The notes below the pieces were generated by a model that was not told where the DNA came from, did no database searches, and saw only the letters and a program-made list of their open reading frames with translations. Of a stretch of 31,451 nucleotides of DNA, positions 3,704-18,604 are shown in pieces. The DNA comes from a virus, in the IMG/VR virus record IMGVR_UViG_3300035698_003362, positions 1 through 31,451 of that record. One strand, 5' to 3'. Within the stretch, counting starts at the first letter, position 1. Every line of letters begins with the position of its first letter. Position numbers and translations under genes: made by a program.

Positions 3704-5881
3704 TTATATCAGTATGTAACTGATTATGAATCGAACAGATGTAGCCGTATCGGCATCGCCACCAGTTTTACTGACGCTAAGGTCAACACCAGCCGTTTGT
3801 GCAGCGAATGACGCACCATCGGCAATAACCGTTACACCAGCCGTATCCAACTGATTTACAACAGATTGTGCAAGTGTCGCAGCGGTTGTACTTGTCAGAT
3901 CAGTTGCACCACAACCAACTTCTACAGAAGTCGTAGTTCCAACTGTCCCGCCAATGGCGATTTGTTTCAAATCAACCAACTGGAATTGTCTATTAGCCGG
4001 AACCGTAACAAGTACATGTCCTGCGTTAATTTCAGCAACAGAAGCATCCACGACCAACGTATGAGTCATGTAGCCTTCAGCTTCGCCTTTAACTGCGCCA
4101 TTCAAAGTAATTACAGTTGCAGCAGTCGCAGCTTTACCAACAGCTACGGTAGTGGCATTTGTAGAACCAATAGTGATTCCGGCGGCAGTACCACCGTTGA
4201 CAGCACCAGTATCAATAGTTACCGCACCAGCAGCACCATCACCATCAGACGATGCACCACCAGTTATTGTTACAGCTCCACCCTGGGAAGACCCAGATGT
4301 TGAAATACCACCAGCAATAGTAACTGTACCGCCATCGCCAGTCGTTGTTCCACCGGCTCCACCAGTGACATTCAAAGCACCACCATATCCAGTAGTAGTT
4401 CCACCAAGACCTGCGGTTAAGTTAAGAATCGCACCTGCGGATGTTCCAGCACCAGCTTTGGCAGCAATGTCGGTTGACGTTGCATTTGAACCCACGATTG
4501 CAGCGGCAGCCGAAAGTGTCACAGTCCCAGAGGCAGCGATTGTAGTAACGCCAGAAAGCGCACCGCCCATAGCAAGAGTTGTAATCCCGGTCCATGCACC
4601 AGAAGTAAGTGTTGCTGTTCCATCAGTAATTGAATCGCCTGTTACAGCACCATCGGAAGTAAATGCTCCATTGGCTTGAATAACGCCAGCAGTTGAAATG
4701 GTAACACCTGTTGCTCCGTATCCACCGCCGAAAGTTGCACCAGCAGTACATGATATATCTGCAAGGGTAGATGTTCCAGTAACTTCAAGCGTAGTATCAC
4801 AAGTAACTGCTCCAGCAATTTCTACAACACCAGCAGTAGAGATTGAAACACCAGTAGAAGCATAGCCTCCTCCAAATGTAGCACCAGCGGTACACACAAG
4901 ACTTGCTAGCGTCGCAGCACCAGAAGTAGAAGCGGTTGTAAACGCACCAGCAGCAGGAGTGGCTCCACCAATAGCGGCTGCGTCAATCGTTCCACCATTG
5001 ATATCAACAGTTGTTACAGTTCCAAGGTCAGTCCAAGTACCTGTTACAGATGGAGTTGTTATCGCAACTGCGCCGGTAATAGTACATGCGTTAATAGTCG
5101 GGTCTGTAAGCGTTGCAGTAGTCAGTGTTTTGCCAGCAACCGTCTGTGCAAGGGCGAGATAAACAAGACTATCATCTCCACCGGGGTCTGGAGCAGAAAG
5201 TGTACTTGATTGACCAACAGAATCTGGTTTAAGAGTAAGATTAAATCCACTTCCACCAGTTGCAGCACCAGAAAGGATTAACTGGCTGTTCGATGAATCA
5301 GAATCAACTGTAAAGGTTGTGTTCGTTGTACCAGTTGAATCGGATACAGCCGAAAGTGCACCACCAGTTGTTGCACCAGCATGAGTATGATTAGCATTCG
5401 CCCAACCTGTAGCTGCAATCGTCGGAGTTGTCAGTGTCTTGTTCGTCAGCGTTTGTGTCGCTGATAAACTGACAAGCGTATCAGCCACAACGTCAGGAAG
5501 CGTCAGCGTAACGGCCTGGGTTGTTATAGGAGCTTTAAGCGTAACAGCGTGATCTGTTCCTGTAGTATTTACAGAAAGAACAAATGTTCCGTCGCTTTCG
5601 CCATTTGCAAGCGTGAAGGTATCGCTTGTTGTTACTGATTCTGTACCACTGGCGACACCAGAGGCAGAAAGGGCATCAAAATTTGCAGAAGCAAAAGTCC
5701 CAACATTAACGTAATAAATTGCCGTAACATCTACACTGTCGGTTTTTAAGAACTTACACCCCTTTGCATAGCCTGACGTTCCGTTTACTGGAACGGTCGT
5801 TCCTTCCGCATAAATTAGCCCACCATCCGGGTCCATAGCCCGTTTCTTATCACTTAACCATCTGTGTACACTTGAAGACAT
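3704..5881 (-). CDS. Tail fibre-like repetitive protein
   Basis: 725 residues, ATG 5881 preceded by AGGAGA. Residues 1-75 form an N-terminal domain with GYAKGC and YYVNVGT motifs often seen in environmental phage fibre proteins. Residues 125-160 and 240-265 carry TLTNKTLTTPTI-type repeats typical of fibre shafts. Residues 330-352 and 378-400 are near-identical copies of a CTAGATFGGGY module. Residues 490-575 are Gly/Thr-rich triplet-like repeats. About 110 residues at the C-terminus are non-repetitive and look like a terminal head domain. This is the usual architecture of a trimeric fibre that contacts the host surface. Function is assigned from composition and position, not from a recognised named family. 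Confidence 0.8.
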   Translation of the reverse strand: MSSSVHRWLSDKKRAMDPDGGLIYAEGTTVPVNGTSGYAKGCKFLKTDSVDVTAIYYVNVGTFASANFDALSASGVASGTESVTTSDTFTLANGESDGTFVLSVNTTGTDHAVTLKAPITTQAVTLTLPDVVADTLVSLSATQTLTNKTLTTPTIAATGWANANHTHAGATTGGALSAVSDSTGTTNTTFTVDSDSSNSQLILSGAATGGSGFNLTLKPDSVGQSSTLSAPDPGGDDSLVYLALAQTVAGKTLTTATLTDPTINACTITGAVAITTPSVTGTWTDLGTVTTVDINGGTIDAAAIGGATPAAGAFTTASTSGAATLASLVCTAGATFGGGYASTGVSISTAGVVEIAGAVTCDTTLEVTGTSTLADISCTAGATFGGGYGATGVTISTAGVIQANGAFTSDGAVTGDSITDGTATLTSGAWTGITTLAMGGALSGVTTIAASGTVTLSAAAAIVGSNATSTDIAAKAGAGTSAGAILNLTAGLGGTTTGYGGALNVTGGAGGTTTGDGGTVTIAGGISTSGSSQGGAVTITGGASSDGDGAAGAVTIDTGAVNGGTAAGITIGSTNATTVAVGKAATAATVITLNGAVKGEAEGYMTHTLVVDASVAEINAGHVLVTVPANRQFQLVDLKQIAIGGTVGTTTSVEVGCGATDLTSTTAATLAQSVVNQLDTAGVTVIADGASFAAQTAGVDLSVSKTGGDADTATSVRFIISYILI
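4682..4750 (-). repeat. Fibre shaft repeat, copy 2
   Basis: Encodes residues 378-400 of the tail fibre-like protein, a second copy of the 23-residue CTAGATFGGGY...ISTAGV module, 48 residues after the first. The copies differ at three residues (AS to GA, and S to T). At DNA level they differ mainly at third positions, so this is an old protein-level duplication, not a recent DNA duplication. Confidence 0.7.
4826..4894 (-). repeat. Fibre shaft repeat, copy 1
   Basis: Encodes residues 330-352 of the tail fibre-like protein, the first copy of the CTAGATFGGGY...ISTAGV module. Each copy starts with a cysteine, which is unusual in a fibre shaft and could allow regularly spaced disulfide or metal contacts between chains. 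Confidence 0.7.
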
Positions 5882-5972: not shown

Positions 5973-6203
5973 TTACCTCTTTGGTAATTTCACAATCAAT
6001 TTCTGAATCTTTTTCTTAATAATGTCTTCCGAGTCTTTTCGACTTGTTTTATTTTCCTGCTCGAAAACATATAATCCATGTGCCTTGAAATACTCGCTGG
6101 TGGTAATCAGGTGAAGGCGAAGCGCCCGTCTTTCTTTATCAGAACCAGGCACAAGTTTGTCTACCAACCTAGCTACCATCAGCGTGTATTTTCTGTCGTT
6201 CAT
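5973..6203 (-). CDS. Small basic hypothetical protein
   Basis: 76 residues. ATG 6203 follows directly on the TAA of the upstream two-span membrane protein, so translation is probably coupled. The protein is basic and helical, with a lysine-rich C-terminus (KKKIQKLIVKLPKR). No family is recognised. It ends the membrane-protein cluster that lies upstream of the tail fibre. Confidence 0.65.
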   Translation of the reverse strand: MNDRKYTLMVARLVDKLVPGSDKERRALRLHLITTSEYFKAHGLYVFEQENKTSRKDSEDIIKKKIQKLIVKLPKR

Positions 6204-6362
6204 TTATTTAACTGTAGAATCCTTCGCGGCGATACCAATGAGCAGCACTCCACCAGCGGAAAGGATTCCACCAGCAAATTTCGCGTAGATATTATCCAGG
6301 AGAATTAACGCTGCTCCTATAGTCGCTAAGATTCCACCAATAGTCGTTTTCCAATTTTTCAT
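6204..6362 (-). CDS. Two-span membrane protein, holin-like candidate
   Basis: 52 residues from ATG 6362; a longer upstream start lacks support. Two hydrophobic segments lie at about residues 8-21 and 28-44, separated by a short DNIYAKFAG turn, with a charged tail at the end. Size and topology fit small class II holins, though many phage membrane proteins look alike. The ATG lies one base after the TAA of the transmembrane reading frame at 6364-6558, which argues that both are translated in sequence. No endolysin lies next to it. Confidence 0.6.
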   Translation of the reverse strand: MKNWKTTIGGILATIGAALILLDNIYAKFAGGILSAGGVLLIGIAAKDSTVK

Positions 6363-6772: not shown

Positions 6773-6892
6773 CTATCGCTTAGGGCATTTCTGTCCTGCC
6801 AGTTTTCGCTTGCCTTTATTGCCTGTTGCATGACGTTGTGAACTGCCGCTTCTTGGACCTGTTCCGTCACGGGTACCTCTTACTTTTGCCAT
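6773..6892 (-). CDS. 39-residue basic peptide
   Basis: Short gene from ATG 6892 to TAG 6773, with a strong ribosome site (TAGGAG) seven bases upstream. The product has about 11 Arg/Lys in 39 residues. It begins MAKVRGTRDGTGPRSGSS and ends KRKLAGQKCPKR. The RGTRDGTGP start resembles short phage peptides of unknown role. The next gene's ribosome site overlaps its stop codon, which supports real translation. It could bind nucleic acid or be a small virion component; no function is assigned. Confidence 0.65.
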   Translation of the reverse strand: MAKVRGTRDGTGPRSGSSQRHATGNKGKRKLAGQKCPKR

Positions 6893-6902
6893 ATTCTATC
6901 TC

Positions 6903-7121
6903 CTATCCTGTAAAAAGTTTCGCTATTGTAAACCCAATGCCACCGCCACCAGCAAACATCACGCCAGACCCAAACCATATGAGTTTATTAAATCGCTTAC
7001 CATGACCACATCCTTCTTGGTGTTGAGTGAACATTTCAGGAAGACCATTTTCAAGAAAGCCGTCAAAGTATTGTCTTATCCTTAATTCAACTCTATCCAT
7101 GTCTTGTTCTGTTAATGACAT
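6903..7121 (-). CDS. Single-span membrane protein, holin-like candidate
   Basis: 72 residues, ATG 7121 preceded by AAGGGAA. A charged cytoplasmic-type N-terminus (about 45 residues, with a CGHGKRFNK segment) is followed by one hydrophobic segment at residues 47-69 (LIWFGSGVMFAGGGGIGFTIAKLF). This layout, an amphipathic head and one C-terminal span, is shared by small phage membrane proteins of the haemolysin XhlA or holin type. It stands between the tail spike and the lipoprotein-like cluster. Confidence 0.6.
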   Translation of the reverse strand: MSLTEQDMDRVELRIRQYFDGFLENGLPEMFTQHQEGCGHGKRFNKLIWFGSGVMFAGGGGIGFTIAKLFTG

Positions 7122-7130
7122 TATTTCCCT

Positions 7131-8477
7131 TTATGCTGCTTCGCTTGCAAATTGAACTATTGGTTTTAATATATTTTCTGGTGCGTCACGTTGCGGGTAA
7201 ACAGGCCCAATACAATCAGCGTCTGAACGCAATTTGGGACGACCATAAATATCGTTGTCACCTATTGTTGGTCGGATAGTAGGATGACCCATGCCGACAT
7301 CGCAGTTGCCGCCTTTAATTGGAATTTTATACGCATCTATATCTGGAGCATTTGAGGTTTCTGTCGAATTTAGAGTAAATCCGAAAGTTGAACCAGTCAT
7401 AATGTTATAACCGTGAGTTGTTCGAGCATCAGCCAAAACGCCATATTGAGAATTGTCAAAATCAATGTTATTATAAAAAGAAATTGCACCAGAAGTGTTT
7501 CTTAAATCATATCCTCTAACTCCACCACTCATAAGATTATTATAGATGTAAGTGTTGCCGATATTCCCAGTGCCGATAAAGATTCCATTGCCATCGGACT
7601 GTGTACAATCATAAACATAATTTGAGATAACAGAACACCCAGTTATGTGTAATCCGAAAAGGATTCCTTTATCTGCATATGAATTACCGTTGACGATATT
7701 TCCTACAACAGAACCATCATTAGTATTCAGCCTAACACCTTCAGAACCATTATAAGAAGCGGCGGTAACATGACATGAAACAGTATGTCTCGCCGACACA
7801 AGGCCACCAACTACTGACGCTCCGTATGCGTCGATAATAGAAGTAGCATTATCTGGCTTCATTATTTGCACGCCAGCGGTCGTGTTGCCGGGAGAATGAA
7901 ACTTGCCGCCATACACATAAATTGCGAAGCCATTATGGGCTGTTATGAGTTGATCATTGGAAGCTGTCCCAGATGAATATGATTCACAATGTATTACTTT
8001 CAAAGACGATCCAGACGCCACACCGGCACCGCCCGGAGCCTTAGAACTAATACAATCATCACCAGCATCAGAAATTATACATCTTCTAAGATATCCAACA
8101 CAAGCATGTGAGTCTGCAACAGCAGTGAAGCAGTTGTTTGTACATTCCGTTATTCTGACATTTGTAAGAACAAATTCGCCATTTGCGATCTCGTTTTGAC
8201 CATTATTTGTACCAACGACCGCTTCTCCAGTAGAATCAATTGTCAAGTCGCTAATTGTTAGAACATTTGCAGAACCACCAAGATCAGAGTAAACACCAGC
8301 CTGAATAGTTGCGGAATCGATATCTGTGTCGTAATGATCTACGCCAGCCTTAGGCGTTAGTGTAGAAGCAGTACAATCAGATGTACCTTCTGGAATAATA
8401 ACAGTATCACCATTTGAGGCATTGTTATTGATATCGTCAATAATCTCGGCGGCATTTGAAGGACTATAAGTTGTCAT
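7131..8477 (-). CDS. Right-handed beta-helix tail spike-like protein
   Basis: 448 residues. ATG 8477 directly follows the TAA of the preceding gene. The N-terminal part contains NGDTVIIPEG, the start typical of parallel beta-helix proteins. It is followed by repeating short strands with Asn/Gly turns (e.g. GIFIGTGNIGNTYIYNN) through about residue 360, and a C-terminal DIYGRPKLRSDADCIGPV, the ending seen in many pectate-lyase-fold proteins. Such proteins act as phage tail spikes or depolymerases that cut or bind surface polysaccharide. No catalytic residues can be assigned from sequence alone, so enzymatic activity is uncertain. Confidence 0.8.
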   Translation of the reverse strand: MTTYSPSNAAEIIDDINNNASNGDTVIIPEGTSDCTASTLTPKAGVDHYDTDIDSATIQAGVYSDLGGSANVLTISDLTIDSTGEAVVGTNNGQNEIANGEFVLTNVRITECTNNCFTAVADSHACVGYLRRCIISDAGDDCISSKAPGGAGVASGSSLKVIHCESYSSGTASNDQLITAHNGFAIYVYGGKFHSPGNTTAGVQIMKPDNATSIIDAYGASVVGGLVSARHTVSCHVTAASYNGSEGVRLNTNDGSVVGNIVNGNSYADKGILFGLHITGCSVISNYVYDCTQSDGNGIFIGTGNIGNTYIYNNLMSGGVRGYDLRNTSGAISFYNNIDFDNSQYGVLADARTTHGYNIMTGSTFGFTLNSTETSNAPDIDAYKIPIKGGNCDVGMGHPTIRPTIGDNDIYGRPKLRSDADCIGPVYPQRDAPENILKPIVQFASEAA

Positions 8478-8948
8478 TTAGACACCCCCAAGAAGACCGT
8501 AACGAAGATACTTCGCTCCAGAGGCGCTTTCTGCTGCAATAGATATCATCAAATAAGAACCAGGAGTAACAACGGTACGGATCGGTGATTTTGCATACCC
8601 TACCGCGGTAGACAATCCAACCATTTGTAAATCAGCCTCAACAGCAAGATCGGTAGTAGGAACCTGCACTTCTGTTTGTCTTATTTGATTGGCCACTGTT
8701 GGAGTTCCAGAACTATACTCAGTTAAAAGAAGTGTTAAACTCTCGCCAGCAGCAGCATTTACAATTTGAATATCAGCGACATTTTTGCCGTCACAATCAA
8801 TTACAGCACCACCACCAGCAACGACAGCAGCAGTATCAGCTTCAAGTTGTAAAGCATTGGTGGTGCCGCCCCCGTCGTAAAGTGTGCTAGTAACATCATT
8901 AGTGGATTTTTTAAGTGTTCCGCTTATGGTTTCTAAAAATCTTAACAT
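8478..8948 (-). CDS. Hypothetical structural protein
   Basis: 156 residues, ATG 8948 with AGGAGC upstream. Rich in Ala, Gly, Thr and Val with beta-strand character (GGGAVIDCDGKNVADIQIV and similar), without membrane segments. It is co-translated with the beta-helix protein (TAA directly followed by ATG). Position after the head-tail gene suggests a virion decoration or tail component; the family is not recognised. Confidence 0.7.
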   Translation of the reverse strand: MLRFLETISGTLKKSTNDVTSTLYDGGGTTNALQLEADTAAVVAGGGAVIDCDGKNVADIQIVNAAAGESLTLLLTEYSSGTPTVANQIRQTEVQVPTTDLAVEADLQMVGLSTAVGYAKSPIRTVVTPGSYLMISIAAESASGAKYLRYGLLGGV

Positions 8949-8957
8949 AATTTGCTC

Positions 8958-9248
8958 CTAATCAACCTGAACGATTGATACTTCGCCACCAGTTATGGCG
9001 TCGATATAAATTACTCTACTCTCTGGTGCTAATCGAATATACATTGGGAAATTAGTCGGAACCTTAGCACCGCCAGCTTTGGCTTGTGCGGAAGTAAGAC
9101 CAACAGCCGCCCATGTATCAATTCCGGTTACGAGCAATAAGGCACCCAAGTCAAACGCAACATCGCCAGTAATAGATTCGGGAGTTTGTGTTATCGTATG
9201 AGTATGCTTTGTTGACTTTCCTATATTCGCTATTTTAATTGATTTCAT
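8958..9248 (-). CDS. Small hypothetical structural protein
   Basis: 96 residues, ATG 9248 with TAGGAAT upstream. It begins with a basic strand (MKSIKIANIGKSTKHTHTI), includes a hydrophobic Ala/Leu/Gly stretch in the middle that is too short and polar to be a membrane span, and ends GGEVSIVQVD. It lies between the head-tail adaptor-like gene and the 156-residue protein, so a minor virion role is likely; not recognised. Confidence 0.65.
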   Translation of the reverse strand: MKSIKIANIGKSTKHTHTITQTPESITGDVAFDLGALLLVTGIDTWAAVGLTSAQAKAGGAKVPTNFPMYIRLAPESRVIYIDAITGGEVSIVQVD

Positions 9249-10562: not shown

Positions 10563-11696
10563 CTATGCAACGTAACTAATAACGCCACCACATTTTTGAG
10601 GATCGCGGGGCATTAACTGGCATCGAACACTGGTGATCTCAAGGAATGAGTCGTCAGTACCAGGAACGATCTGGGTATCCGCATGACGGAACCACTTCTT
10701 TTTGTCAACACCAAACTTCATCTGGTCAAGGTTGGTGAAGTACATCGGGTTCTCGCCTCGAAGTGTATCCGGCGAAGCAAACGCATCGTCAAGAGCATCA
10801 ACTCGATGAACCGGAATACCGTTAATCATGTGAGTCATGCGATATTTGGTAATATCAGCACCGATATTATCATTCATCTGCTCTTTAACATTACCCAAAG
10901 ACTTCCACATGGTAGCGTTCGTGTATATCCGCTTATTCTTAAATGCGGGCATATCCAACTCATCCATATTGCCGGGAGCCTTAAAATCAAGCTGATATAA
11001 TACTTCTGCAATGCGTTCGCGGTCAACCTGAGCTATTTCGCCACTAGAGTTTGACCAACCTGCATTATAACTACGCAAATCAGCATAGGTAGCAGAACTT
11101 TTATCAACCTGAGCAGAACCAGCCGCGGCAAGTGTTGAGTTTACGGCACTGGCGACATTAGCACCCTGGAACGCACCCGCGATAGTCGAGGTAGCGGCCT
11201 GTGCGCTGGTAATCGGTGGAAGCCACATGGGAATACTGAAAATCTGAGTCTGTGAAATCGTGGAATCAACATAACCCCACATATCCTGCTCAAGACCACG
11301 AAGATAACGAAGTTTTTCCGTGATTCTACGTGCTTTGACAACATTGACAAGTTGGGCTGCGTCCCTATTTGCGAGCAACTCCTCTTCCAGATACGATACG
11401 TTGTATCCACCATTAGCAATTTGGACACTGCCAAGTACTGAGTTATCGGTCAAGCGGCCCGAATGTACTGTTCCGGGATTATACCATCGGTCAGACTTCG
11501 TGTCTGATTCCATGTCATAATACCAACGCTCTTCAAGATATTTGCCGCCTGGGATGCCTTCTTGATTGCCGTTAATAAATCCATCGAGTGTATGCCAACT
11601 GTTTTGCTTCATCATAGCGATGATGCTTTTTCGGCGTATTCTCGGTAGTGTTTGGCGAACTACGTCTGCTAATTCTGAGGTTTTGTAACCGGCCAT
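10563..11696 (-). CDS. Major capsid protein
   Basis: 377 residues, ATG 11696 with TAGGAG upstream. The call rests on the order terminase, portal, scaffold, then this gene, on a length typical for capsid subunits, and on features common in HK97-fold and related capsid proteins. These include a long helix with RRITEKLRYLRGLEQDMWG (residues 125-143), an Ala/Thr-rich central region around residues 165-200, and a conserved-looking HMINGIPVHRVDALDD segment near residue 290. A strong ribosome site and a stable hairpin after the gene fit high expression. No recognisable protease cleavage site is claimed. Confidence 0.8.
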   Translation of the reverse strand: MAGYKTSELADVVRQTLPRIRRKSIIAMMKQNSWHTLDGFINGNQEGIPGGKYLEERWYYDMESDTKSDRWYNPGTVHSGRLTDNSVLGSVQIANGGYNVSYLEEELLANRDAAQLVNVVKARRITEKLRYLRGLEQDMWGYVDSTISQTQIFSIPMWLPPITSAQAATSTIAGAFQGANVASAVNSTLAAAGSAQVDKSSATYADLRSYNAGWSNSSGEIAQVDRERIAEVLYQLDFKAPGNMDELDMPAFKNKRIYTNATMWKSLGNVKEQMNDNIGADITKYRMTHMINGIPVHRVDALDDAFASPDTLRGENPMYFTNLDQMKFGVDKKKWFRHADTQIVPGTDDSFLEITSVRCQLMPRDPQKCGGVISYVA

Positions 11697-11732: not shown

Positions 11733-12698
11733 CTATCTAAAATCGCCTGTCTCTCGCAAAGCTCGCAATACCTCACCATCATCATCGTAATTATCAACAG
11801 CACCAGCTGGAATAGTCTTGGTACTGTTTGGAGGTGGCATATTACCCTTATTGACACGGCGTGCTTTATCTGTAGCACTACGTTTTATAGATGCTTTGTA
11901 TTCGTTTGGATAGACATCAAAGCAGGCTTTGTCAATCGCATCAGGTAGTTCTAATTCCTCACCAGTTCGCTCTAAATAACTCTTGCGAAACATCTGTGCC
12001 GAATCAAATACTTTGTCACGATTCTTTTTCTCCAAGCTACCGTCCTCAAGCGAGGATCGCGGCCCGGAACCAAAGAGCTTTTCCCAATCTTTCTTGGGTA
12101 AGCCCTCAAAGACCTTATCAACTGCCTTCTCCATCTTTTTGTTCTCGGCATTTTGGATTTTTGTTGACAACTCTTTGTTTTGCTTTTCAGCAGCACCGAG
12201 TTTTGTGTGAAGGTCGTTTATTTGAGTAACAATCTCATTAACGCCTTCGTCAGAATCAATCTTATCAAAAATGTCATCGTCGCTAACTGTTTTAGTTTCT
12301 ACAGGCGACTCTTCTGTAGAATTATCTTCTCTACCATATCCATGCTTGGTTGGTAGCCCCTGAGACTTTCTTGTTAGTTCTGATCTCAGGTCAGCGGCGT
12401 GTTCAAGGATTTTACCATCAATGTTTTTGGCTTCATCCTCAGTTAAATCCAGTGCTTTCGCACCAGCTTTTTGCCGCTTAGTCAACTTCGGCGTATCGTC
12501 CTTATCTTCTTCATCTGAAGGTTCGACAGGTTTTACGTCGTCGTCATTGTCAGTATCCGCATCAGGTTGGGGTTGATCTGTCGCTGGAGAGTCGTCCATT
12601 GCAGTGTCAAGCGAGGAAATTAACTCCTGCTCTTCCGCATCAGACGATGAATCTTCTAACTCAGAGTCCTGAATTTGATCTTCTACTGTATCTTCCAT
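11733..12698 (-). CDS. Scaffolding-like acidic protein
   Basis: 321 residues from ATG 12698 (AGGAG eight bases upstream); a start 30 bases earlier lacks a ribosome site. The first 100 residues are extremely acidic (DTVEDQIQDSELEDSSSD and further Asp/Glu runs). Residues 165-215 form a predicted coiled coil (INDLHTKLGAAEKQNKELS), and the C-terminus is basic (KRSATDKARRVNKG). An acidic, helical protein immediately before the capsid gene is the normal position and composition of a phage scaffold, which guides capsid assembly and is removed later. No protease motif is seen. Confidence 0.7.
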   Translation of the reverse strand: MEDTVEDQIQDSELEDSSSDAEEQELISSLDTAMDDSPATDQPQPDADTDNDDDVKPVEPSDEEDKDDTPKLTKRQKAGAKALDLTEDEAKNIDGKILEHAADLRSELTRKSQGLPTKHGYGREDNSTEESPVETKTVSDDDIFDKIDSDEGVNEIVTQINDLHTKLGAAEKQNKELSTKIQNAENKKMEKAVDKVFEGLPKKDWEKLFGSGPRSSLEDGSLEKKNRDKVFDSAQMFRKSYLERTGEELELPDAIDKACFDVYPNEYKASIKRSATDKARRVNKGNMPPPNSTKTIPAGAVDNYDDDGEVLRALRETGDFR

Positions 12699-12801
12699 TA
12701 TTTTTCTCCTAAACTTCCCATGAGTCATGCGCGTACACCGAGCAGGTTGGTCGATGGGAAAATTTGCTTCTAACTAAATTGCCGCCCTTATAGACGGTTT
12801 A

Positions 12802-13104
12802 TTATAAATACTTTGCTAAAATGTCTTCGAGCAAACAAATAACACGATGTTCGTTGTTGTCTGGTATGTCATCCAAAAACGCGTCAGCAAACACGATGTG
12901 CAACAACTCGTGGATAATTGCAGATCGCTGCTTATCACCAACTGGCGACCAAATGATACAAGTTCGTCTGAAAGCATCAAAATTAACCTGTGCAGAAGCA
13001 TCAAGTCCAACCCAAATAGGCCTCTCTTTGCACTCAGACAGCTTTATATTCCATGCGTCCAGCTTAAACAGCTTGATAAGTTTTTGGAATTCCCTGCTTT
13101 TCAT
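12802..13104 (-). CDS. Small HExxH zinc metallopeptidase-like protein
   Basis: 100 residues, ATG 13104 with AAGGAA upstream. Residues 65-69 are HELLH, the zinc-binding and catalytic motif of many metallopeptidases, in the context SAIIHELLHIVF, preceded by a strand and followed by DNNEHRVICLLEDIL, which can supply a third ligand. The whole protein is close to a minimal SprT/M78-like domain. Neighbouring genes are the scaffold and two small unknown proteins. It might process a head protein or an early host factor; the substrate is unknown. Confidence 0.65.
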   Translation of the reverse strand: MKSREFQKLIKLFKLDAWNIKLSECKERPIWVGLDASAQVNFDAFRRTCIIWSPVGDKQRSAIIHELLHIVFADAFLDDIPDNNEHRVICLLEDILAKYL

Positions 13105-13116
13105 GTAACCATTTCC

Positions 13117-13491
13117 TTACCCTACATCTAAAACGCCATCACTATAGAACTTACACAGCTTCTTTTGAGTAGTAAGCCCACCTCTAAACTGCAACCCACC
13201 GCCTTTATCATACCCAACTGCGTTAATTCCAGCCTTTTTCAGCCTAGCAAGTTCTGAAACTTGTTCGCCACGAGTACGGCCGAAAGTAATAGAGGTCATT
13301 AGTGTCGCATCATTGTTTGATATTTCACCAACTCCAGCTTTGACTAACTCGCCATTGCCACTTAAAACAAAAACACCACTGGATTCCTCAAGTTCTGCTT
13401 CTGTCTTTAGATATGAAGGCTTCTTATCTCTCCACAAAAAGCAATCATCGGGCAATGATCCCGATCTATTTCTGTCACCTTTCCCACTCAT
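13117..13491 (-). CDS. Hypothetical protein
   Basis: 124 residues. ATG 13491 shares its A with the TAA stop of the upstream gene (TAATG), so translation is coupled. It has an N-terminal Gly/Asp/Arg-rich segment (MSGKGDRNRSGSLPDD) and a central mixed region with Gly-rich turns, and it ends with FYSDGVLDVG. No recognised domain, signal or membrane segment. It forms a block with the gene before it and the metallopeptidase after it. Confidence 0.65.
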   Translation of the reverse strand: MSGKGDRNRSGSLPDDCFLWRDKKPSYLKTEAELEESSGVFVLSGNGELVKAGVGEISNNDATLMTSITFGRTRGEQVSELARLKKAGINAVGYDKGGGLQFRGGLTTQKKLCKFYSDGVLDVG

Positions 13492-14072
13492 TAGATAGTG
13501 GCCTTAATCGTAGCCCGCATCTCATCTGTGGAAATAGTCCAAGCAACCTTAATTGGAGGGTCTTGAGCTTTAGCCCAATCGTACATCTGCTTCTTATCCA
13601 TTACATCAAGGTCTATAGAAGCGTCCTGGGTGCCGTTCTTAGCCACTTCGGGCGTATCAACCGCCTGTTTCTCGACTATCTCGCGAATGCTCTCAAAAAC
13701 GGCGTTGTGTAGATGATCAAGGTAGCCGGAAATAGTCAAACCTTCTGGCATAATAACGCGGAACTTATCGTAACCCTTACGGTTTATCAGCTTGATTTCG
13801 CGTAGCCATGTCATATATTTTGCATTGTCAACCTTCAACTTAGCAATTTCTGCCTGAAGTGAAGGTACAAGTTCAAGTTTGAGATTTTCACCGTCATCAG
13901 CAGCAACTTCTAGCATATCTTTCGGTGGAGCAGCAACAACAACGCTTTGCCCACCCTTAATATCGGCAATCTGCTTCCTCAAATCTGCACAAGTTTTGGT
14001 GTCCCACTGTGTTTCCGGATTAGCCAGTAGTTTTTCCAACTTCGCTATTCTGTCAATATCTGTTTGGTTCAT
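13491..14072 (-). CDS. Hypothetical coiled-coil-containing protein
   Basis: 193 residues. ATG 14072 overlaps the TGA of the GroES-like gene (ATGA), with GGAAAGG upstream. The N-terminal 30 residues (IDRIAKLEKLLANPETQWD) and residues 65-95 (LELVPSLQAEIAKLKVDN) are helical with heptad spacing. The remainder is mixed, ending in a KVAWTISTDEMRATIKATI segment. Not recognised. Position between co-chaperonin and scaffold suggests a head-assembly accessory role, inference only. Confidence 0.7.
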   Translation of the reverse strand: MNQTDIDRIAKLEKLLANPETQWDTKTCADLRKQIADIKGGQSVVVAAPPKDMLEVAADDGENLKLELVPSLQAEIAKLKVDNAKYMTWLREIKLINRKGYDKFRVIMPEGLTISGYLDHLHNAVFESIREIVEKQAVDTPEVAKNGTQDASIDLDVMDKKQMYDWAKAQDPPIKVAWTISTDEMRATIKATI

Positions 14073-14371
14073 TTTGTGCCTTTCCGTATCTTCACAAGTA
14101 TATCAATTTCTCGCAAAACTATGATCTTTTTGTCATCAACTTTCACATCTTTGACACCAGCAAATTCGCTAAAGATAACCTCGTCGCCGACCTCAATATC
14201 CATTGGTAATCGGTCATTTGTGACAATCGACCATTTGCCCGGGCCGCGTACAACTACTTCACCACGGCAAAAATCCATTGGAACACCATCTGGTAAAATC
14301 AATCCACCAGATGTTTTCGTTTGTTTTTTTACCTCAACTGCAATTCTGTCATCCAATAATTCAAAACTCAT
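14069..14371 (-). CDS. Phage GroES-like co-chaperonin
   Basis: 100 residues, matching the usual size of GroES/Cpn10. Landmarks of the family are visible in order: LLDDRIAVEV (residues 5-14), a mobile loop with TKTSGGLIL (18-26) that in GroES docks onto GroEL, RGEVVVRGPGK (36-46), VGDEVIFSEFAG (61-72) and IIVLREIDIL (83-92). GroES caps the GroEL chamber and assists folding; phage versions (T4 gp31, RB49 CocO) adapt it for the capsid protein. Its place in the head operon, coupled by ATGA overlaps to the genes before and after, suggests a similar role here. Confidence in the fold is high. Confidence 0.9.
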   Translation of the reverse strand: MSFELLDDRIAVEVKKQTKTSGGLILPDGVPMDFCRGEVVVRGPGKWSIVTNDRLPMDIEVGDEVIFSEFAGVKDVKVDDKKIIVLREIDILVKIRKGTK

Positions 14372-14589
14372 TTTTCATTTTCCTTTCCTGTAGTTTTCCA
14401 TACTAACCCTTCTTCGTAAATTATCTCCCCAGCAGTTAAACGCTCACCAGCAAACCAATTTGAACGTGTGTGTCCGTTTTTATCGAGCCAAAAACAAAGA
14501 TACTTTCCATCACTAACATCTTTCTCAACCATAACCATTTGTGGGCCACCAGAATTCAGTACAACTGTCTGTCCTTTTTCAATTTTCAT
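14368..14589 (-). CDS. DUF2158/YodC-like small protein
   Basis: 73 residues, ATG 14589 with AAAGGAA upstream. The N-terminus IEKGQTVVLNSGGPQMVM (residues 3-20) and the following KYLCFWLDKNGHTRSNWF match the pattern of the DUF2158 (YodC-like) family: a 'GD.V.LKSGGP.M' opening and a 'C.W' strand. The family has no established function. The gene overlaps the GroES-like gene by four bases, so the two are translated together. An SH3-like beta barrel is likely. Confidence 0.7.
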   Translation of the reverse strand: MKIEKGQTVVLNSGGPQMVMVEKDVSDGKYLCFWLDKNGHTRSNWFAGERLTAGEIIYEEGLVWKTTGKENEK

Positions 14590-14607: not shown

Positions 14608-16374
14608 CTACTCTAAGCCCACACTTGCCGTCTCTAACGGCGTTTTGCTCGTAGTGCCTTGGCCTGTGTTAATTGTTGTGTTATCTCCACCCCGAGAACC
14701 CGCCTGTATGCCTTGTTGTGGTAGTTCCTGTTGTACTTCTACCCAGAAATCATCTGGATCGTCAATACCCTGATCGCCACCAAGTTCCCTTGTAATCTTG
14801 TCGACATTAGGCTCCTTACCCTGCAATTGTGCAAATGGAGCAAGACCCATGATTATGTCCTGAACAAACTTCGATTTACGTGCATATCGCTCGTTTGTAG
14901 TATCGGCCTGGCCTACAAAAACAGCTATGTCGAAATTGTAGTCGTCAAACGTACCCTCGCGATAGTCTGGTTCCCACTGTTCGAACACACCATCGTCAGG
15001 CAGCCCGGTATTCAATGGGAATTCGTCAAACTCATCATGCCAAAGCCAATACGCAGCCTTCTGACACAAACTTTTCGCAACTTTAATGATCATACCCTGC
15101 AAGTCACTCATTTTAATACCAGCAGAATCAAGTAGTTGCTGATCTTGTGCTGCCGTCTGAGATTGCGGACCAAGCCCGCCAAGGACTTCTGCATTCATAG
15201 CAGCGTCATTGTACCATTCTTTGACCTGCTGAGAGCTTGCAAGCATCGCCTGGGAGACGCCTCCTACCTTCACGGTATCAATAGTACCACCAAGCGATAG
15301 AATACCATCACCATCTTTTGCGTCAGCCATGCTCTCGAGTTGTTTTTTATCTCCAAAGTTACCTGTAGGGAAATCTCGCTCATTTATTGCACGATCTACA
15401 AACTTCGCAGCCAAATCATTCGCCGCACGATGCAAGTCTATAAATGTACTGACAATAGAAATTGGCTTTACTGTGCCGGGCTTATCAAGAAATGATGTTC
15501 TATCATATGGCCCTTCTTCCGGCCCCTCATATGGGCGGCGTGATAATATGCCAACCTTTTCAATTTCGTCTAAATCGCCTGGCAGCGTAACAATCTCGCG
15601 GGTTTGTGGCAAATACAAGTGAAGTAACTTGATCTCATCATAAATGTTGGGAATACGCTTCTCGTCACCACCAGTGAGTTTCGCCTCAATCGGCTCGATC
15701 AATTCGACTTGATCTGGATCGTACAGCTCGCAACCAGTAGCAAACGCCTTCGGCACATCTTGATAATGGCCCATAAACTTGCACGTATCCCATGTCCGAG
15801 CGTCACTATCGTAAACGAAATCCTTCGCATCAATACATCTGACGTAGAACTTGCCCGGATCGTCAAGGTAGCCAGTAGCCTCTTCAAGATTACCAACGAC
15901 CTTATCTGGGGCAACGCCACTAACTAAAATACCCTGCCCAAACAATGCCTGTACGACAAAATCACGCATAACATCGTTTAGATTAGCCTGATTGAACCGG
16001 TGTTTAACACCACGCTCAAATATCCGTGCAAAAACATCTAAACCAGTAGAAGTATACCCAAACTTCGGTAACGGGTCGATTGCAAGTAATGGCCGAAGCG
16101 TAATGATAGTCGTAAACACCATAGCCAACTGACGATCTCGCTCACCCAACCCACGAGCATTTACGCCCGAACCATCTTGAAGCACACCATCGACATACTT
16201 TCCGTTAGGGCCGCTACCGTCGAAATACAGCCCGCAAAGCTCGTCAAGCATTAACTGTCGCTGTCTTTCAACCTCCTCACAATGCTTCTGAGCCTTACGC
16301 ACAGCACGCACCAATCGCAAATCCTGCTCGGTAAGCTTAGGTTCTATCTCGGTTTTTTCTGCTACTTCTACCAT
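14608..16374 (-). CDS. Portal protein
   Basis: 588 residues from ATG 16374. It follows the large terminase directly (17-base gap). The N-terminal helix bundle and FTTIITLRPLLAIDPLPKFG (about residues 87-106) resemble portals of short-tailed phages. The central region has alternating strands and helices (IVTLPGDLDEIEKVGILSRR), and a long C-terminal helical part (MSDLQGMIIKVAKSLC) ends in a flexible Gln/Gly/Thr-rich tail. Portals form the 12-fold ring through which DNA is packaged and later exits, and bind the terminase and neck. Assignment is by position, length and general pattern; the exact family is not determined. Confidence 0.78.
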   Translation of the reverse strand: MVEVAEKTEIEPKLTEQDLRLVRAVRKAQKHCEEVERQRQLMLDELCGLYFDGSGPNGKYVDGVLQDGSGVNARGLGERDRQLAMVFTTIITLRPLLAIDPLPKFGYTSTGLDVFARIFERGVKHRFNQANLNDVMRDFVVQALFGQGILVSGVAPDKVVGNLEEATGYLDDPGKFYVRCIDAKDFVYDSDARTWDTCKFMGHYQDVPKAFATGCELYDPDQVELIEPIEAKLTGGDEKRIPNIYDEIKLLHLYLPQTREIVTLPGDLDEIEKVGILSRRPYEGPEEGPYDRTSFLDKPGTVKPISIVSTFIDLHRAANDLAAKFVDRAINERDFPTGNFGDKKQLESMADAKDGDGILSLGGTIDTVKVGGVSQAMLASSQQVKEWYNDAAMNAEVLGGLGPQSQTAAQDQQLLDSAGIKMSDLQGMIIKVAKSLCQKAAYWLWHDEFDEFPLNTGLPDDGVFEQWEPDYREGTFDDYNFDIAVFVGQADTTNERYARKSKFVQDIIMGLAPFAQLQGKEPNVDKITRELGGDQGIDDPDDFWVEVQQELPQQGIQAGSRGGDNTTINTGQGTTSKTPLETASVGLE

Positions 16375-16391
16375 ATGTTACAAATTACCTA

Positions 16392-18182
16392 TTAAAAGCG
16401 CCTTTGTTTCTGTTGTTTACGCTCTTCCATCATCTCAGCATATAGCTGTGAGCCAAATAACGGCTTCTCCTGCTCTGGTTCCCATAACTTCGTCATCATA
16501 CGCGATCTGTGAGTTACCAGCCCGGTTATCATACGTGCCATTAAATCATCGTCGTGCATCCCCTCAGGAGCGCCCATAATAGCCTTTTCGCCCTTCAAAG
16601 TCTTGATATATGCCGCCATCTGGTCAACAGTCTCAGAATCGGCCCAGTCCATCTCACCAGCAAGTGTCGCCTGGATTGCAAAGTAAACCAAGTCGCTTTT
16701 GCTTGCGGGGCCTGTATACCAACCATAGTTTATACCACCCCTGGCATTGAGCTGATTAGGCTCACCACGGACGAAGATGTTCGGATACCGCCATTCTTGC
16801 CTAAATTCACCCAACAATAACGGTAACAACACCAACGCAGGCGGGCCGCCATTGACTTCAGGTGCAAGCAAAGCAGTATTGTAATGATAGCCGATACCCA
16901 TAATGATACGGCCCCAAGTCATGATTGGGAAATACCCCTTAACCTTCGCGACTATCTTGTTAGTTTCCATACATTGAACAAGGAGAGAATCGTAATCTGT
17001 CTCGTCTGATGAGCCCCACATGGAATCTGCTCCGACAACATAGTGATATCGCTCGTCAGGATACTGCCATATCTTGACATTGCCAGCGACACGCTCTGAA
17101 AGTTCGTACTCTCTGGGGTGTTTGTCGTCCGTGACAAGCATATCCCCAACCCATTCGGGCTGTCGGACTGTTCTTCTTGCCACAATGATTTCTGGTTGCT
17201 GGAATACATTCAAACCACCCGATAAGAAAGCCTCTTGCTCAGTCGATGGGAACTTATTAGCCCAGAATACCTCATCACCGTTGAATTCCACCAACGACGC
17301 CCGACGCCACATCATCTGACCAGCAGTAACGCCAGTGAAATCTACCAGTGCAGCGTCCTCAGTTAGCTTGTAAGCGTCTGATGCGGCCACAATAGCCTTC
17401 TCATTATCTGTAAGCTCGCCCATGTCGTCCCATGTGATCTCAGCGCCGCTATCATACTCTTCGTCAAGGAACCATGGACAGAATATCGCCCGGTAATGAC
17501 AGGGTAATCCATTGGCAAGTATACCATTCTTGGCAGCGTAGTAATCTCGATACCATTCGTCACCAACCGATAAACCTGTTGACTCTTGTATGATAAACGT
17601 ATCCGACTTCATCGGTACGGCGGGGATAAGCTCGTTTACAGTAGAATCAACATGTAACCAATATGGTTTCTCAGAGAAATGCACGCCCTGAAGCGTTGAA
17701 CCCATACCAGGCGTAGTACCCTCAGAGCTACCAATCCGATAATGACTGTCAATCACATCGTATGATAAACCCATTTCATTAGTCGCTTTGGTTTTCGGTG
17801 GGCTTTCGAGTTCGTTTTCCAACTGTTCTTGCAATAACTTCAACTTCCCCAACCAGTCGCGAGGCAAGTCTTTCTTGTTAGCAATACTAATCGACGTATG
17901 CCCAGGATTGGTTATCGTCCACCACCAACAGAAGATTATCACAAACAACGACCCGCCAAGCTGCCGATACTTCAACAATCGTATCCTGATAGGTTTGCCA
18001 ATTGCCACCTGCTCACATATAGCAAGCCATAACAACCTTTGGCCTCGCTTGAACTTGAACGGAACCAGCTCCCCGGCTTTGTTCCTGATCTTGACGAACC
18101 GTAAGCAAAAGGCCTCAAAGTCCATTATGAGCTTGCGGGCCTGTTTGATTGTGTTATCTGTCACTATTCTATCGTCTACCAT
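16392..18182 (-). CDS. terL: Terminase large subunit
   Basis: 596 residues from ATG 18182, chosen because GGAGG lies eight bases upstream; a GTG six bases earlier is too close to it. The ATPase domain has a deviant Walker A, LKYRQLGGSL (residues 70-79), of the type found in phage terminases, and GVHFSEKPYW (167-176) at the Walker B/adenine region. FPSTEQEAFLSGG (311-323) is a common linker signature. The nuclease domain (RNase H fold) shows VVGADSMWG (D386), PEVNG (E442) and MHDDDLMAR (D544-546), the expected acidic triad. It drives DNA into the prohead and cuts it. It overlaps the preceding gene by seven bases. Confidence 0.92.
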   Translation of the reverse strand: MVDDRIVTDNTIKQARKLIMDFEAFCLRFVKIRNKAGELVPFKFKRGQRLLWLAICEQVAIGKPIRIRLLKYRQLGGSLFVIIFCWWWTITNPGHTSISIANKKDLPRDWLGKLKLLQEQLENELESPPKTKATNEMGLSYDVIDSHYRIGSSEGTTPGMGSTLQGVHFSEKPYWLHVDSTVNELIPAVPMKSDTFIIQESTGLSVGDEWYRDYYAAKNGILANGLPCHYRAIFCPWFLDEEYDSGAEITWDDMGELTDNEKAIVAASDAYKLTEDAALVDFTGVTAGQMMWRRASLVEFNGDEVFWANKFPSTEQEAFLSGGLNVFQQPEIIVARRTVRQPEWVGDMLVTDDKHPREYELSERVAGNVKIWQYPDERYHYVVGADSMWGSSDETDYDSLLVQCMETNKIVAKVKGYFPIMTWGRIIMGIGYHYNTALLAPEVNGGPPALVLLPLLLGEFRQEWRYPNIFVRGEPNQLNARGGINYGWYTGPASKSDLVYFAIQATLAGEMDWADSETVDQMAAYIKTLKGEKAIMGAPEGMHDDDLMARMITGLVTHRSRMMTKLWEPEQEKPLFGSQLYAEMMEERKQQKQRRF

Positions 18183-18604
18183 ATCCACAGCCTCCAGAAT
18201 GAGCGGCGGGGCTTGTTTTGAACATTGCGTACAACGAAGGGGTGTAGCTTAGTGGTCTCTCGAAGTCCGTCAACGAACTGCAACATGCGAGTACGACGTT
18301 CGTCTGGTGTCTCTGCCGGCTTCTCGGTTTCTTTTGCTTCAAATCCTGGACAGTTTTCGTTTATATAGTGCATGGCTGGACTTGGAGATCGAGAACATCT
18401 GAATGTGGCGTAATCGGGAACATACCACTTGCAATCTTTACAGTATACCCTTGATTGAAGCTTTTTGACATCAGCTTTGAGACCAACAACCTCCACTGCT
18501 GGCATAATGCACCACGCAGAAACCTGGTGGCAATGGGGACAATACGCTAAACCAGTATTTTCACCTTTGAAAACGATTGGAAATTTTTCATGCCCACAAG
18601 TCAT
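18176..18604 (-). CDS. Zinc-ribbon hypothetical protein
   Basis: 142 residues from ATG 18604, which shares a base with the TGA of the gene before it. It carries a CGHE start, CPHCHQ (residues 21-26), then CKDCKWY (about 55-61) and later cysteines CSRS and CPGF, enough for two zinc-binding knuckles. The C-terminal half is helical and charged, ending in RRSFWRLWIW. It lies directly upstream of the large terminase. A DNA- or RNA-binding helper of packaging is possible, but unproven. Confidence 0.7.
   Translation of the reverse strand: MTCGHEKFPIVFKGENTGLAYCPHCHQVSAWCIMPAVEVVGLKADVKKLQSRVYCKDCKWYVPDYATFRCSRSPSPAMHYINENCPGFEAKETEKPAETPDERRTRMLQFVDGLRETTKLHPFVVRNVQNKPRRSFWRLWIW

Follow-up and report, generated by a model that had tools for sequence, protein, structure and literature searches.

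The question of why a few phages supply a GroES themselves, when most rely on that of the host, is still argued mainly from bacteriophage T4. In the published account of co-chaperonins from T4 and its relatives, gp31 is required for the folding of gp23 and GroES is no substitute for it, and both gp31 and CocO of phage RB49 are described as able to replace GroES (PMC3012670). The chamber formed by GroEL and gp31 is reported to be about 8% larger, which is linked to a bigger subunit and longer loops; the roof loops of gp31 are described as missing, and these differences are said to be generally believed to enable the folding of the 56 kDa gp23 (PMC6318259).

Outside T4-like phages, Pseudoalteromonas phage B8b is reported as the first siphovirus with a GroES, with earlier cases in myoviruses and podoviruses, and its authors suggest that a capsid or tail of greater complexity needs a dedicated chaperonin (PMC4294664). 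GroES is described as a core gene of the HTVC023P-type phages (PMC9599517) and is marked in the legend of the CRP-901 genome map (PMC10149686); two GroES-like genes are reported for phage CBB (PMC5259590). A sequence-only reading of the locus described here had held that most other phages lack a GroES, which is fair as a generalization, but phage GroES has already been reported in several groups. Phage GroES is thus already known, and the present protein is an ordinary-looking further example. By description, it shares with the HTVC023P-type and CRP-901-type podoviruses the carriage of a GroES (PMC9599517, PMC10149686) and with B8b a position within a series of structural genes in a tailed phage; also by description, the B8b gene differs in lying shortly before the tape-measure gene and not after the portal (PMC4294664).

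Identification and model of the GroES protein

The window corresponds to a linear virus record of IMG/VR, 31451 bases long, and contains one Cpn10 match (Table 1). The product matches Pfam family PF00166 (Cpn10) with an E value of 2.9e-17 (62.9 bits, cut-off 21.1) over profile positions 4–93 of 93, i.e. the full length, and the 'co-chaperonin GroES' family phrog_3188 at 8.1e-17; among solved chains, E. coli GroES is the closest in sequence (5.6e-14). Scored against the codon usage of four large neighbouring genes, the reading frame gives 0.361 per codon, and the five other frames give −0.116 to −0.643. An AlphaFold2 model built from 30 aligned sequences has the GroES β-barrel fold at a mean pLDDT of 87, matches 1p3h in Foldseek with an E value of 5.5e-9 and superimposes on GroES structures with TM-scores of up to 0.82 (by query length). 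Since Pfam, PHROG, codon usage, the nearest solved chain and the model all agree, the gene is real.

Table 1. Genes of the packaging and head run of the window, and GroES loci of other viruses used in the comparison
Record	Feature	Coordinates	Strand	Details
Window	Terminase large subunit	16392..18188	minus	598 aa, GTG start; sequence matches
Window	Portal candidate	14608..16374	minus	588 aa; place after terminase, sub-threshold SU10_portal match
Window	DUF2158 gene	14368..14589	minus	73 aa; Pfam 26.6 bits, cut-off 22.3
Window	GroES (Cpn10) gene	14069..14371	minus	100 aa, 11.2 kDa, ATG start
Window	193-aa gene, function unassigned	13491..14072	minus	4-base overlap with GroES stop
Window	Scaffold candidate	11733..12728	minus	331 aa, acidic, pI 4.6; from position and composition
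Window	Major capsid protein candidate	10563..11696	minus	377 aa, 42.1 kDa; from position
DSL-LC05 (L173)	Roof-less GroES beside portal	6001-6249
L130, L134, L140, L143, L161, L170	Roof-less GroES beside portal
L090	Long-loop GroES, roof kept	5376-5699		loop 31
L174 (PBR31)	Long-loop GroES, roof kept	6891-7214		loop 29
L102, L104, L107, L115, L117, L118, L123, L130, L134	GroES directly before portal
L140, L143, L144, L156, L161, L164, L167, L170	GroES directly before portal

The mobile loop comprises approximately residues 15–36, with GGLIL at 22–26, and the roof hairpin approximately residues 44–57, which form short strands at 47–48 and 53–54 in the model. The description of a complete GroES with a mobile loop and core motifs, GGLIL being kept in the loop, therefore holds. 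The full-length match, the hydrophobic loop tripeptide and the roof hairpin are shared with bacterial GroES and Cpn10 (E. coli GroES and M. tuberculosis Cpn10), from which the window protein differs in being encoded in a phage operon without groEL, in an identity of at most 41% and in a leucine in place of Pro5. At this proline it departs from the PROSITE-type N-terminal signature, which the GroES of phage PBR31 and T4 gp31 also fail; the signature describes bacterial members, and the mismatch is a small departure and not decisive.

Comparison with gp31

The window GroES was aligned with 26 viral GroES sequences from IMG/VR, T4 gp31, two bacterial GroES and the GroES of phages PBR31 and DSL-LC05, and the lengths of the loop and roof segments were taken as the residues between fixed alignment columns. 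The loop segment has 22 residues in the window protein, 23 in the two bacterial proteins and 28 in gp31, and the roof segment has 14, 12–13 and 7 residues, respectively. Neither the lengthened mobile loop nor the missing roof of gp31 is observed in the window protein, and BLASTP gave no alignment between the two. Unlike the window GroES, gp31 combines a longer loop with a reduced roof and is encoded beside rIII and 31.1, away from the head genes.

The expectation of a larger cavity, as in gp31, finds no support in a loop no longer than the bacterial one, a roof that is present and a capsid candidate of 42 kDa, compared with about 56 kDa for T4 gp23 (PMC6318259). No sequence feature of the window calls for a larger chamber.

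Gene neighbourhood

The order on the minus strand is terminase, portal candidate, DUF2158, GroES and then genes for 193-aa, 124-aa, 100-aa, 331-aa and 377-aa products, with intergenic gaps of −4 to 73 bases between the terminase and the 377-aa gene. The GroES gene is the second after the portal candidate, on the same strand, and its start is overlapped by 4 bases by the DUF2158 gene and its stop by 4 bases by the 193-aa gene. The overlaps on which a coupling to a DUF2158-like gene before it and another gene after it had been proposed are thus confirmed on both sides. The 100-aa product of the same run (12802-13104) contains an HELLH motif, as found in small zinc peptidases. In T4, gene 31.1 beside gene 31 (L092, 3182-3882) is annotated as an SH3 barrel and belongs to Pfam family WYL_2; a relationship between the DUF2158 protein and this product was considered and rejected, as the two give no alignment and their Pfam families differ.

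The terminase assignment is solid: at E values of up to 0.01 it has matches in 170 phage records, 19 of which cover at least 80% of the query in one place. Gene order, size and charge or composition are the main basis of the portal, scaffold and capsid labels. The match of the portal candidate to PF23899 (SU10_portal) reaches 18.9 bits, below the cut-off of 30; profile, sequence and PDB searches with the portal, scaffold and capsid candidates gave nothing decisive, the portal and capsid candidates gave no match to phage records in tblastn searches, and a profile comparison found the portal candidate to be unrelated to P22-like portals. Scanned with one protein at a time, IMG/VR gave no confirmed relative for GroES or for the portal, terminase or capsid candidates. 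The contig is thus an orphan virus fragment, with no close relative found for its GroES, portal or capsid candidate. 'Head operon' is a likely name for this gene run but is unproven gene by gene, because the portal, scaffold and capsid labels lack decisive homology; of the position between portal and scaffold given in the sequence-only reading, the run that starts with the terminase stands, and the portal label (sub-threshold) and the scaffold label (from position and composition) are weaker.

Relatives of the terminase were collected as 80 loci (24–29% identity) using a three-sequence terminase alignment. A GroES frame was present in the fetched flanks of none of the 80, and among 38 of them searched as whole records a Cpn10 match was found in one, that of L197, outside the fetched stretch. 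This terminase type does not usually travel with a GroES, and relatives of at most 29% identity lie too far away to reveal whether the lineage of the window itself gained or lost GroES. Absence from related phages, which had been named as grounds for refuting the sequence-only reading, is seen in part: the gene is missing from nearly all of these relatives, but they are too distant to decide the matter.

GroES beside portals in other viruses

A scan of IMG/VR with a GroES alignment yielded 85 confirmed viral loci, 80 of which were kept; some look bacterial, with GroEL adjoining GroES. Forty-six of the 80 were searched as whole records, with near copies left out by eye. GroEL was found in ten of these records and a P22-like portal (phrog_156) in 11; DUF2158 was found in none of the 46, indicating no shared DUF2158–GroES cassette. 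Of 11 scan loci in which the portal ORF spans 500 codons or more, six have GroES directly before it. PHROG matches place a portal directly after GroES in L084, L041, L050 and L053 and 1.6 kb past it in L090.

These five portals served as the query for a portal search, biased towards GroES-linked viruses, that gave 80 loci. With this biased query and a home-made profile, GroES was found in 21 of the 80, in 17 of them directly before a P22-like portal with gaps of −11 to +13 bases (Table 1). Pfam searches of the whole records of these loci found GroES in 22 of 80; L161 was missed in this search, and its GroES frame passes the cut-off (22.7 bits). Set against one of 38 terminase-relative records, 22 of 80 corresponds to a Fisher p of 9e-4, which is optimistic because the query is biased and the loci are related. 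The 91 loci whose portal ORF reaches 500 codons (L086, in which the portal is truncated, was not counted) fall into 80 clusters, 22 with an adjacent GroES, at 95% identity, and into 22 clusters, four with an adjacent GroES, at 70%. The GroES of L140 and L167 are identical. Sixteen portal-linked GroES form a supported split (95/96), outside of which lie the window protein and, likewise, the portal-linked GroES of L050, L053, L090 and PBR31. The window gene follows its portal candidate, with DUF2158 in between, and so does not have the arrangement directly before a phrog_156 portal.

The recurrence of GroES before P22-like portals, usually overlapping, in many uncultivated viruses is new here. 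A literature search that covered few subscription journals yielded no publication on GroES next to P22-like portals, nor any on roof-less portal-linked GroES, and the main texts of the PBR31 and Dishui Lake papers nowhere mention GroES or a chaperonin.

GroES is not always a head gene, since it lies among replication or nucleotide genes in Motura, Munch, L060 and L066. The L060 locus had been taken from gene sizes as terminase–GroES–portal, an assignment that was rejected when PHROGs identified an SbcC-like protein and ribonucleotide reductase. Several further observations were made in the loci collected. Portal loci without GroES (L105, L106, L109–L114 and others) often have a basic frame of 40–80 aa just before the portal, ending like MPLVKS..AFRKN..KQAVAIAY. 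Two neighbouring frames with GroES matches occur in the viral locus L091 (7836-8291 and 8836-9585). Flavobacterium phage elemoA (L003) has an annotated GroEL–GroES pair at 7430-9243 and a second annotated 'cpn10' at 1744-2286.

Roof-less and long-loop variants

In six of the 19 aligned portal-linked GroES from IMG/VR, the roof segment is 4 residues long and the loop segment 18, and the same roof-less, shortened-loop form is found in the deposited phage DSL-LC05, in which the GroES and portal genes overlap by 4 bases. All ten portal-linked GroES tried, the six roof-less sequences included, pass the Pfam Cpn10 cut-off, and a model of the L140 protein (pLDDT 82) keeps the barrel, with strands absent at the roof position. 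These roof-less proteins are reminiscent of gp31 in the missing roof but have a short loop. In L090 and in Xanthomonas phage PBR31 the roof is kept and the loop segments exceed that of gp31; the gene order in PBR31 is GroES, a small gene, terminase, portal, scaffold and capsid. DSL-LC05 and PBR31 resemble the window in having an annotated GroES in the terminase–portal region. They differ from it in a GroES without the roof segment (DSL-LC05) or with a long loop (PBR31), and the portals of these and similar viruses are P22-like, with no profile relation to the portal candidate of the window.

A general scheme can be offered tentatively, and we consider it somewhat more likely to need revision than to stand as worded. 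Tailed phages may repeatedly have placed a private GroES in the packaging and head module, translation-coupled to the portal region, as a lid for head proteins; in P22-like viruses this lid would have been remodelled in two ways, by loss of the roof with a short loop or, in PBR31 and L090, by lengthening of the loop with the roof kept, both altering the chamber. The window would stand apart, its lid being unmodified and its portal of a different type, and as such speaks against a phage lid always meaning a larger chamber. The portal-linked family, which extends from ordinary to roof-less, offers a test of which lid features a head protein needs, and the roof-less and long-loop variants beside P22-like portals are a more interesting result than the GroES of the window.

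Origin of the gene

In a sample of 100 genomes from the phylum of a Gaiellaceae hit, 90 gave a GroES match, with a best identity of 41% to the window protein; other phyla were thinly sampled, by six plasmid-borne GroES and a single GroES on a contig that is bacterial but deposited as phage. In a tree of 59 rows and 98 columns the branch of the window GroES measures 1.55 changes per site, and the protein belongs to no starred set, so that the tree cannot place it: the branch is long and its position unsure. Recent capture from the sampled hosts appears unlikely, because the best identity is 41% and the long branch falls in no starred set, and the phylogeny proposed as a check for such a capture thus gave no sign of one. 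Capture from an unsampled host is possible, other phyla being thinly sampled.

Functional implications

The explanation that we consider the best, and on balance probable, is that the window GroES is a working cap for the host GroEL, made with the head proteins and helping to fold at least one of them. The product would most likely form a seven-membered ring that docks on host GroEL through the LIL of its mobile loop, shutting the folding chamber. Translation alongside the head genes would time GroES to head-protein production, presumably late in infection, and supply an extra lid when these proteins are made in bulk. Its most likely client would be the capsid protein, and a candidate of 42 kDa should fit the normal chamber. 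In such a role it would resemble T4 gp31 and RB49 CocO, phage-encoded co-chaperonins described as working with host GroEL (PMC3012670, PMC6318259). A search of the whole window record found no GroEL match, and this and the 36 of 46 GroES-bearing records without GroEL are as expected if the host supplies it. The full-length Cpn10 match, the GroES model, the bacterial-sized loop and roof, the overlaps and spacing of the gene run and the coding signal support the role as a cap, and the recurrence of GroES beside head genes, at the portal loci and in DSL-LC05 and PBR31, supports the link to the head. Counting against a cap for head proteins are the terminase relatives, which mostly lack GroES, the GroES located elsewhere in Motura, Munch, L060 and L066, and T4 gene 31 outside the head genes.

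The ordinary dimensions of the protein, without a gp31-like change, and the occurrence of GroES outside head modules in other phages would also suit a general supplement that reinforces or commandeers the host chaperonin for many proteins during infection, the site among the head genes merely securing late and strong expression; this we judge rather unlikely, as tight portal linkage recurs elsewhere, in contrast to none of the 80 terminase-relative loci. The DUF2158 and GroES genes overlap and sit as a pair, and the terminase relatives lack GroES, as might be seen if the two were passengers, a moron cassette that entered the run after the portal and ahead of the downstream head genes and serves some purpose other than head folding. 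The gene after GroES overlaps it too, however, the pair is no known unit (DUF2158 being in none of the 46 GroES-bearing records) and GroES–portal couplings recur in other viruses, all of which make such a cassette improbable. Even less probable is a repurposed fold that has kept the barrel and lost the partnership with GroEL, becoming, for instance, a small structural component of the head: the long branch, the loss of Pro5 of the PROSITE-type signature and the roof-less, loop-shortened GroES beside portals in other viruses are compatible with it, but the window protein keeps the loop tripeptide, the loop length and the roof.

A bacterial groES brought into the contig by contamination or misassembly is the least credible alternative and can practically be dismissed, although some GroES-bearing 'phage' records are indeed mislabelled bacterial DNA. 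The window record has no groEL, its genes overlap GroES on both sides within a same-strand run that includes the terminase, the codon usage of GroES is that of its neighbours and the identity to any bacterial GroES compared is at most 41%. The mislabelled records include the two strongest 'phage' GroES matches, both from Acinetobacter phage MD-2021a, which were rejected on the basis of one of the two: L005 (CAKLQH020000021.1) resembles a bacterial chromosome, with groES–groEL among metabolic genes, and misleads GroES searches in phage collections.
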